A stretch of 41,272 nucleotides of DNA from Gammaproteobacteria bacterium (GTDB lineage: Bacteria > Pseudomonadota > Gammaproteobacteria > DSM-19610), in the NCBI GenBank assembly GCA_026197075.1, contig JAPHQV010000005.1, forward strand, positions 1-41,272, given 5' to 3'. Position numbers and translations under genes: made by a program. Shown here piece after piece: positions 1 to 41,149 of this stretch; positions within the stretch are counted from its first letter, which is position 1; each line of letters opens with the position of its first letter. The notes under the pieces were generated by a model. The model was not told the DNA's origin. It saw only the letters and a list, made by a program, of their open reading frames with translations, and did not search any database.

Positions 1-361
<361 letters not shown>

Positions 362-36163: not shown

Positions 36164-36253
36164 TCGGCCGCGCGCCACGCAGGCTGGAGTCGAGCCTTCC
36201 GCTGGTGAGTATTGACAAGGGACAAAATATTTGGGCAGACTCCCGAGCATGAG

Positions 36254-36410
36254 CACAGATTTTTCCATGCCGTCCAACAGCGTCCTGCGCGTATGCCTGT
36301 GGCACCGCGCAGCCGGTGCCCGTGGCCCATGGAAAAGTTGATGTACCGCTAACACACTCCGCATACCAGCGGTTTTCCAGGGCCACAGATTTCACGATCT
36401 GTGGCCTTTT
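36254..36410 (+). promoter_or_regulatory. Structured leader upstream of the DMT transporter, riboswitch or attenuator candidate
   Basis: A stem of at least nine pairs, TTTTCCATG (36261-36269) with CATGGAAAA (36328-36336), encloses an inner hairpin GGCACC/GGTGCC (36301-36320) and a 3-bp GCC/GGC step. A further hairpin ACCGCT/AGCGGT (36345-36373) follows, then a terminator. Competing pairings exist: GGAAAA (36331-36336) can instead pair with TTTTCC (36373-36378), CTGTGGC (36297-36303) with GCCACAG (36382-36388) in the terminator, and CACAGAT (36254-36260) with ATCTGTG (36397-36403). TTGACA at 36212 may be a -35 but has no good -10. I do not recognise a known riboswitch class. Confidence 0.5.
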
Positions 36411-36411
36411 T
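36381..36411 (+). terminator. Intrinsic terminator in the leader before the DMT transporter
   Basis: GGCCACAGAT (36381-36390) pairs perfectly with ATCTGTGGCC (36397-36406) around a 6-nt loop and is followed by TTTTTG. It lies only 20 nt before the transporter start codon, which suits conditional termination better than the end of the upstream hydrolase gene, over 200 nt away. Confidence 0.88.
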
Positions 36412-36431
36412 GCTTTTGGGGGATATGCATC

Positions 36432-37328
36432 ATGTCGATACCGGCGGCCTTTGTGGCCGTGATCCTGATCTGGTCCACCACGCCGCTGGCCATCCAGTGG
36501 AGTGGCCAGGGCGGCGGCTATCTGTTCGGCGTGACCGCGCGCATGGTGGCGGGTGCGTTGCTGTGCGGGCTGGTAATGCTGGTGTTGCGCGTGGCGCTGC
36601 CGTTGCACCGCGACGCCCTGCGCACCTATGCGGCAGCGGGCATGGGCATCTTCGGCGCCATGATCTGTGTGTACTGGGGCGCCCAGTTCATTCCCTCCGG
36701 CTGGATCTCGGTGCTGTTCGGATTGACGCCCATGGTGACGGGTGGTTTCGCCCTCTGGTGGCTGCAGGAAGAGGGCTTCACCCCCTTCAGGATCCTGGGG
36801 CTGGTGTTGGGCCTGCTGGGCTTGCTGGTCCTCTTCGGTAGTGGCGCGACCCTGGGCGGCCAGGCCCTGTTCGGGGCGGTGGCGGTGCTGGTCTCGGTGG
36901 TGTTGCATTCGCTCAGCGCCGTATGGGTGAAACGGGTGGGCGCGAATCTGCCGGCCATGGCGGTGACCGGTGGCGGCCTGCTGGTGGCGGCCCCGGCCTA
37001 CCTGGTCTGTTGGTGGCTGTTCGACGGCCGGTTGCCGGAGGAGCTGCCGCTGCGCACCCTGGGATCCATCGCCTACCTGTCGGTGTTCGGTTCGGTGCTC
37101 GGATTCATGCTGTACTACTATCTGCTGCGGCATGTGGAGGCGGGCAAGACGGCCCTGATCACCCTGGTGACACCGGTGCTGGCCCTCCTGCTGGGCGCCG
37201 CGCTGAACGCCGAGCACCTGGGCTGGAAGGTATGGCTGGGTACCCTGCTGATCCTCACGGGCCTGGCCTGCCATTACTGGGGTGGTCGTGTGTCCGTGCG
37301 CATGCCGCTTGCGGGGAAGGAAGAGTGA
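36432..37328 (+). CDS. DMT superfamily transporter, EamA type
   Basis: A 298-residue inner-membrane protein with about ten hydrophobic helices in two EamA repeats of five, typical of the drug/metabolite transporter superfamily. Examples are AAFVAVILIWSTTPLAIQW in helix one and ALITLVTPVLALLLGAAL in helix nine. Such proteins often export amino acids or small metabolites; the substrate cannot be read from the sequence. A GGGGG site nine nt upstream supports the ATG. The gene follows a structured leader and terminator, so its expression may depend on conditional read-through. The sigma-factor gene begins 43 nt later. Confidence 0.9.
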   Translation: MSIPAAFVAVILIWSTTPLAIQWSGQGGGYLFGVTARMVAGALLCGLVMLVLRVALPLHRDALRTYAAAGMGIFGAMICVYWGAQFIPSGWISVLFGLTPMVTGGFALWWLQEEGFTPFRILGLVLGLLGLLVLFGSGATLGGQALFGAVAVLVSVVLHSLSAVWVKRVGANLPAMAVTGGGLLVAAPAYLVCWWLFDGRLPEELPLRTLGSIAYLSVFGSVLGFMLYYYLLRHVEAGKTALITLVTPVLALLLGAALNAEHLGWKVWLGTLLILTGLACHYWGGRVSVRMPLAGKEE

Positions 37329-40741: not shown

Positions 40742-40826
40742 GGAGGGGTTCCCGAGTGGCCAAAGGGATCAGACTGTAAATCTGACGGCTCCGCCTTCGG
40801 AGGTTCGAATCCTCCCCCCTCCACCA
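40742..40826 (+). tRNA. tRNA-Tyr (anticodon GTA)
   Basis: An 85-nt type II tRNA. The acceptor GGAGGGG pairs with CCCCTCC, the anticodon loop is CTGTAAA, a long variable arm CGGCTCCGCCTTC follows, the T arm is GGAGG-TTCGAAT-CCTCC, and CCA is encoded. Confidence 0.97.
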
Positions 40827-40945
40827 GACAATGTGGATTCTGCCGGCGGTGGCCACTGGCACGGTAGCAGGAATGCCGCACCGGTTCGGGCCGGGAGTAT
40901 ATAAAGGCATAGCCCGGAGGGCCAGGCCGGGGAAAGGTAGGCCGC

Positions 40946-41019
40946 GCGGGTGTAGTTCAATGGTAGAACTTCAGCCTTCCAAGCTGAATACGTGGGTTCG
41001 ATTCCCATCACCCGCTCCA
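40946..41019 (+). tRNA. tRNA-Gly (anticodon TCC)
   Basis: A 74-nt tRNA. The acceptor GCGGGTG pairs with CACCCGC, the anticodon loop is CTTCCAA, the T arm carries GGTTCGATTCC, and CCA is encoded. Confidence 0.97.
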
Positions 41020-41073
41020 ACAGCGTAAAAGTTACGGGATTCCGGAAAAGAAGTCCGGGTCGAGACGAAATTT

Positions 41074-41149
41074 GCCCATGTAGCTCAGTCGGTAGAGCAC
41101 ATCCTTGGTAAGGATGAGGTCACCAGTTCAACTCTGGTCATGGGCTCCA
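41074..41149 (+). tRNA. tRNA-Thr (anticodon GGT)
   Basis: A 76-nt tRNA. The acceptor GCCCATG pairs with CATGGGC, the anticodon loop is TTGGTAA, the T arm carries AGTTCAACTCT, and CCA is encoded. Confidence 0.97.

Follow-up and report, generated by a model that had tools for sequence, protein, structure and literature searches.

A probable ribosome-dependent transcription attenuator with a single tryptophan codon in front of a DMT transporter gene of Gammaproteobacteria

The window analysed here is a 41,272-nt stretch of contig JAPHQV010000005.1 (assembly GCA_026197075.1) of a gammaproteobacterium of the DSM-19610 lineage. It harbours, on its forward strand, a gene for a 298-residue transporter of the drug/metabolite transporter (DMT) superfamily (36432-37328), whose product was assigned to the EamA family (PF00892) with an E value of 7.5e-32. 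This protein stays below the NCBIfam cut-offs for YedA (75.6 of 270 bits), YddG (21.7 of 300) and TIGR00950, and no sequence relative of it was detected among the solved structures. The start codon of the gene is located 23 nt past the stem of an intrinsic terminator, which closes a structured leader. Three tRNA genes are present at the end of the window (40742-41146, forward strand). All features of the leader described below are on the forward strand as well.

The upstream boundary of the leader is marked by a putative sigma-70 promoter consisting of a -35 hexamer TTGACA (36212-36217) and, after an 18-nt spacer, a -10 hexamer CAGACT (36236-36241), which is followed at a distance of 7 nt by an ATG codon at position 36249. 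The arrangement is well preserved in homologous leaders: in 76 of 89 homologues, the leader ATG is preceded at 35-37 nt by TTGAC, 80 of 97 have a gap of 6 or 7 nt between the -10 hexamer and the ATG, and the base at position -1 is a C in 81% of the leaders. Transcription is thus predicted from sequence to start at or beside the ATG, which would leave no room for a Shine-Dalgarno site, and the ORF opened by this codon appears to be leaderless. A transcript start below the terminator, which would have spoken against the original prediction of a regulatory leader, is not suggested by these data, since the conserved promoter lies above the ORF. The predicted leader ORF (36249-36341) comprises 30 codons, encodes MSTDFSMPSNSVLRVCLWHRAAGARGPWKS and ends with a stop codon at 36339-36341. 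It was absent from the original prediction and runs through the structure described there. Codon 18 of this ORF is a tryptophan codon, UGG (36300-36302).

Folding of the region 36240-36440 yielded a minimum free energy of -80.3 kcal/mol as compared to -62.5 +/- 3.9 kcal/mol for dinucleotide shuffles (z -4.57, 0 of 200). The stem of 9-12 bp, the inner hairpin, the second hairpin and the terminator proposed originally were all recovered at their positions. The long leader stem is formed by 11 bp between 36258-36268 and 36329-36339 and can be extended by pairing of 36269-36272 with 36323-36326. In the minimum free energy fold, the Trp codon occupies an apical position in the inner hairpin (36285-36312), the 7-bp stem of which is made up of 36285-36291 and 36306-36312. 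The second hairpin (36345-36350 with 36368-36373, 6 bp) resides in the spacer between the stop codon and the terminator, which in the homologues is about 25 nt long and A/T-rich. The intrinsic terminator (36379-36416), which provides regions 3 and 4 of the leader, is composed of a hairpin at 36379-36408, with 13 bp between 36379-36391 and 36396-36408, and a subsequent T tract. Two segments of the leader are perfectly complementary to the 5' arm of this terminator. One of them, CTGTGGC (36297-36303), can form 7 bp with 36382-36388 (GCCACAG; -16.8 kcal/mol including the flank), whereas the other, GTGGCCC (36322-36328), hereafter region 2, is the complement of 36380-36386 (GGGCCAC; -16.5 kcal/mol).

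To place these features in a broader context, relatives of the DMT gene were sought in its own family, in 369 genomes of the class and in contigs of named genomes. Such relatives were found in the family itself, in 107 of the 369 class genomes and in named contigs including those of Thiohalobacter, Sedimenticola and Ca. Thiodiazotropha. One cultured carrier of the leader is Thiohalobacter thiocyanaticus Hrh1 (L063). The leader was scored as present at 75 of the 90 class loci fetched, with locus L030 as a further carrier. In L030 and L038, both of which are cut at contig ends, the leader is present and has its Trp at codon 19, and at least the terminator is present at L084 and L095. Altogether, approximately 90 homologous leaders of constant layout were collected from diverse Gammaproteobacteria, always in front of the same DMT (EamA) gene, and 89 leaders were analysed after near-duplicates and unclear cases had been left out. 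The terminator arm GGCC[AG]CAG is kept in nearly all of the homologues. In four cases (L022, L048, L049 and L062), the terminator and the DMT start are separated by roughly 200-290 nt owing to an insertion of some 200-270 nt. At L049 and L062, this insertion resembles a MITE in its long inverted termini (CCTCCTAAGACTAATCGA... ...TCGATTAGTCTTAGGAGG).

The 369 whole genomes were also searched with a strict pattern in which UGGC is followed after 50-78 nt by the terminator, and 18 of them contained a match. Every match was situated immediately upstream of the DMT gene, none was found elsewhere in these genomes, and the control with the reversed pattern was empty. A direct DNA search with the leader likewise revealed no second copy in its own genome, and in the relatives only a 30-base match to the terminator was retrieved. 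Judging from these searches, the leader is dedicated to one gene, the DMT transporter being the only gene seen under it.

The leader ORFs of the homologues occupy the same place and are mostly 27-36 codons in length. In 88 of the 89 leaders, the frame in question (frame 0) stays open over 25 codons, as compared to 20 and 58 leaders for the other two frames, although this comparison is biased upwards because the ORF finder favoured frames with an ATG right after a -10-like hexamer. An in-frame Trp codon near codon 19 is found in 84 of the 89 leaders. When the UGG nearest to nt 54 was counted without any frame preference, it fell into frame 0 in 72 leaders, into frame 1 in 13 and into frame 2 in 2. 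A role of this codon as a motif of the RNA only was rejected: UGGC does match the terminator arm, yet it is locked to the frame (72 of 87), whereas no phase is preferred in its distance to the antiterminator. Conserved positions of the leader are confined to the promoter, the ATG, the UGG, the stop codon and the terminator arm. The interior of the ORF is unconserved and variable in length; between the ATG and the stop, stems aside, conservation is limited to the reading frame and one UGG. Five leaders (L025, L026, L039, L082 and L104) share the promoter, the ORF and the terminator but have no Trp codon in the ORF; TGGC is kept in another frame in L039, L082 and L104. These Trp-less leaders are either degenerate or sensors of something else.

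The covariation analysis pointed to an antiterminator downstream of the Trp codon. When the leaders were scanned against the 5' arms of their own terminators, the pairing peaked 14-24 nt after the Trp codon, where the cognate arm surpassed the arms of other species. In a permutation test of the segment W+12..30 (counted from the Trp codon) against the arm, performed on 84 leaders, the cognate combinations reached -13.55 kcal/mol and the permuted ones -11.10 kcal/mol (z -10.3, 0 of 20000). The antiterminator pairing was also significant in 63 dereplicated leaders (z -8.5), even when only the variable half of the arm next to the loop was considered (z -7.3), and several positions of the terminator arm exhibit all or most of the Watson-Crick pair types. 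In addition, the base of the long leader stem covaries (z -6.4), and a weaker covariation was observed for the outer 1:2 pairing (z -4.1). Hence covariation in homologous leaders, the absence of which would have counted against a regulatory leader, is strong for both the antiterminator and the base stem. Meanwhile no cognate excess across the family was detected for the inner 1:2 pairing (W-30..0 with W+12..30; z 0.3), and the control pairings (inner 1:2, 1:3, spacer:3 and spacer:2) were all null. The segment upstream of the Trp codon showed no cognate excess against the terminator arm either (z -0.5).

The pairing of 36297-36303 with 36382-36388, which had been proposed to open the terminator, has to be reinterpreted in this light. 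The 7-bp complement is perfect and real, but in the homologues the cognate arm is not favoured by the equivalent segment around the Trp codon (z -0.7), although the invariant UGGC is by its nature unable to covary. Moreover, a ribosome positioned at the Trp codon would cover this segment. This segment was consequently rejected as the antiterminator, and the one shared by the whole family sits downstream of the Trp codon (36322-36328). Similarly, the 6 bp of the second hairpin do exist in the window, but its spacer has no covarying pairing to the antiterminator or to the terminator arm. Selection on the terminator, on the antiterminator and on the basal part of the long stem is apparent from the comparison of homologous leaders. 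The 3' strand of the base stem also contains, in many leaders (e.g. L010, L012, L042 and L039), a Shine-Dalgarno-like GGAGGAAA run approximately 7-13 nt before the stop codon, which may also pause or re-load ribosomes.

The distance from the first base of UGG to the antiterminator has a median of 15 nt, with an interquartile range of 13-17 nt, and falls in all phases. This is roughly the point at which the RNA emerges from a ribosome that has UGG in its A site. The consequences of this geometry were modelled by folding the transcript with a masked ribosome at the stage before the 3' arm of the terminator is made. On average, region 2 engaged 0.52 of the arm when the ribosome was placed at the Trp codon. 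This share dropped to 0.01 once the ribosome had advanced by eight codons and came to 0.28 at the stop codon, where the ribosome covers only part of region 2. The corresponding values for the leader of the window were 0.59, 0.00 and 0.10. In ribosome-free folding, the arm already pairs with region 2 at a mean of 0.45, and termination without translation may thus be leaky.

These observations are consistent with the following mechanism. Transcription would start at or beside the AUG, and the leader ORF of about 30 codons would be translated without a Shine-Dalgarno site. If Trp-tRNA is scarce, the ribosome would stall with UGG in its A site, leaving the segment about 15 nt further on free to pair with the 5' arm of the terminator, and read-through into the transporter gene would follow, i.e. 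the gene would be induced on starvation. A ribosome that reads on towards the stop codon, on the other hand, would cover region 2, whereupon the terminator would form and transcription would end, yielding a short RNA with a predicted length of about 160-170 nt. The conserved ORF, predicted to be translated, the placed regulatory codon and the antiterminator, mutually exclusive with the terminator, are the hallmarks of an amino-acid attenuator.

Comparison among the homologues establishes the ORF and its frame, the Trp codon, the covariation of the antiterminator and the base stem, the spacing and the exclusive association with one gene. We therefore hold it to be very likely that the leader is a translated-ORF attenuator with the antiterminator at 36322-36328. 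That the attenuator depends on the ribosome, contains a single regulatory Trp codon and controls the DMT transporter gene is probable. The sensing by the Trp codon, which we infer from the codon itself and the geometry, is probable to the same degree. Some points, nevertheless, stand against this reading. There is only one Trp codon, whereas classical trp leaders contain two or more; 5 of the 89 leaders have no Trp at all, and the inner 1:2 pairing is without covariation. The pairing of the arm with region 2 in ribosome-free folds and the incomplete cover of region 2 by a ribosome at the stop codon count against it as well.

The main rival model is a general translation-stress attenuator, like that of bmrB-bmrCD of Bacillus subtilis or of whiB7, in which antibiotics or general starvation slow the ribosome and an exporter is induced. 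The existence of such leaders is proven by bmrB, a translated leader ORF that chooses between terminator and antiterminator in front of transporter genes (PMC4191407), just as proposed here. The layout of antiterminator and terminator is the same, the leader peptide is unconserved, and the target belongs to a superfamily of drug/metabolite transporters. However, bmrB-bmrCD responds to ribosome-targeting antibiotics, lacks a dedicated sensing codon, serves an ABC transporter and has its terminator inside the leader ORF. A conserved UGG is no part of an attenuator of this kind. Since the model does not account for an in-frame UGG that is retained in 84 of the 89 leaders and keeps a fixed distance to the antiterminator, it is rather unlikely.

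A second alternative is a TnaC-like nascent-chain arrest peptide. In this case, the ribosome would be stalled at the stop codon by free tryptophan or some other ligand, and the conserved Trp residue, some 13 residues up the chain, would act from within the exit tunnel. The Trp residue of most leaders is indeed found 11-15 residues before the stop, and W12 of TnaC is comparably placed. Yet no other residue of the peptide is conserved. Between close relatives, changes are spread evenly over codon positions 1, 2 and 3 (74, 93 and 98, respectively), and the changed codons comprise 144 nonsynonymous and 45 synonymous ones, i.e. nonsynonymous changes occur at the frequency expected under neutral drift. 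As far as these sequence comparisons go, the reading frame and the Trp codon are maintained by selection, whereas the peptide is free to change. Such a pattern is characteristic of codon sensing. It speaks against a functional microprotein as well as an arrest peptide, and both were rejected on the basis of the codon-position counts. Moreover, part of the antiterminator is hidden by a ribosome at the stop codon and pairs less, so that an arrest at this position would favour the off state of the gene. Arrest at the stop codon is accordingly a very improbable explanation.

The leader might also represent a separate small RNA gene with its own promoter and terminator that merely adjoins the transporter gene. 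The wide spacing at the four loci mentioned above would fit such a gene, and the terminated trpL leader RNA of Sinorhizobium meliloti is known to act in trans (PMC7298713). A covarying antiterminator would, however, be purposeless in a stand-alone RNA, and the element is found only before the DMT gene; we give this possibility as little credit as the arrest peptide.

The original prediction, finally, left the choice between a riboswitch and an attenuator. The attenuator is backed by the conserved frame, the UGG and the covarying antiterminator, while a metabolite-binding riboswitch operating independently of translation is the least probable reading of all, since the stable covarying structures and the intrinsic terminator before a transporter gene, which would suit it, are accompanied neither by conserved aptamer-like sequences or loops nor by any Rfam match, and an open, frame-locked ORF spans the whole supposed aptamer. 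No Rfam family was matched at the gathering threshold by the leader of the window or by 20 homologous loci, in keeping with the earlier remark that the leader could not be matched to a known class. Matches to BjrC68, isrD, CsrC, Pab160 and ceN28 in relaxed searches were far below gathering, fell on the terminator or at random and were discarded as devoid of meaningful score.

The ribosome-dependent attenuation of transcription proposed here is known from trp-type leaders; what differs is the number of Trp codons (one), the position of the antiterminator (inside the ORF) and the target (a transporter gene). The leader of the Escherichia coli trp operon, trpL, also combines a short ORF containing Trp codons with mutually exclusive antiterminator and terminator structures, and the stalled ribosome frees region 2 for the terminator arm in the same manner. 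In contrast to the present leader, trpL has two adjacent Trp codons and precedes trp biosynthetic genes, whereas here the ORF is apparently leaderless, holds the antiterminator and is followed by a DMT transporter gene. Trp_leader of Rfam matched the leader of the window neither at gathering nor with E values up to 5, and no match was found in the 20 homologous loci. A parallel with respect to the translation start is offered by trpL (rnTrpL) of S. meliloti, a leaderless Trp attenuator in which the AUG of the leader ORF forms the very 5' end of the RNA (PMC7298713), as predicted here. The S. meliloti leader differs in that it encodes a 14-aa peptide with several consecutive Trp codons and controls trpE(G) in the Alphaproteobacteria, as opposed to a single Trp codon and a transporter. 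A short ORF containing just one Trp codon, MRNVHECRIENARWRG, together with the sequence GGGCCTTTTT, was also noticed upstream of trpE in the genome of the window (L125, G000:C43, reverse strand, about 1318-1398), possibly representing a second, different one-Trp-codon attenuator.

A literature search, which covered few subscription journals, yielded no report of an attenuated DMT/EamA gene or of this leader. No DMT gene is mentioned in the main text of the TrpR/TyrR regulon reconstructions of Proteobacteria (PMC5343134), nor in the main text of a survey of premature terminators (PMC2965389).

The regulated protein shares the family PF00892 with YddG, YedA and other EamA/DMT transporters. YddG is an exporter of aromatic amino acids, and an exporter was predicted for the present locus as well. 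Export is doubtful here: stalling at UGG would report the scarcity of Trp-tRNA, and starvation-induced antitermination would fit uptake better, so that import would be a more likely function of the induced gene than export. Uptake of tryptophan, or of one of its precursors, by this transporter is a speculative hypothesis to which we assign slightly less than even weight. The gene neighbourhood offers no clue to the substrate, as the neighbours of the DMT gene differ between genomes. Among the 369 genomes, however, a permease of the Mtr/TyrP type (PF03222) and the DMT gene co-occur in only 2, while 14 shared genomes are expected (hypergeometric P 4e-6). As both genes follow lineage, this near-exclusion is no more than a hint. 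Somewhat more tentatively still, the leader and its gene could constitute a class-wide tryptophan regulon of a single gene, in which a leaderless attenuator with one Trp codon governs an importer of tryptophan or a precursor in those Gammaproteobacteria that have no Mtr/TyrP-type permeases, and the terminated leader possibly acts in trans as rnTrpL of S. meliloti does.

Both substrate and direction of transport are seldom predictable from sequence in the DMT superfamily. The Trp codon, if its proposed role is true, would represent a rare functional lead for a transporter of this kind. It would also imply that one codon within a leaderless ORF suffices for ribosome-dependent Trp attenuation. 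Across many families of Gammaproteobacteria, such attenuation would then have been kept for one transporter gene, not for the trp operon.
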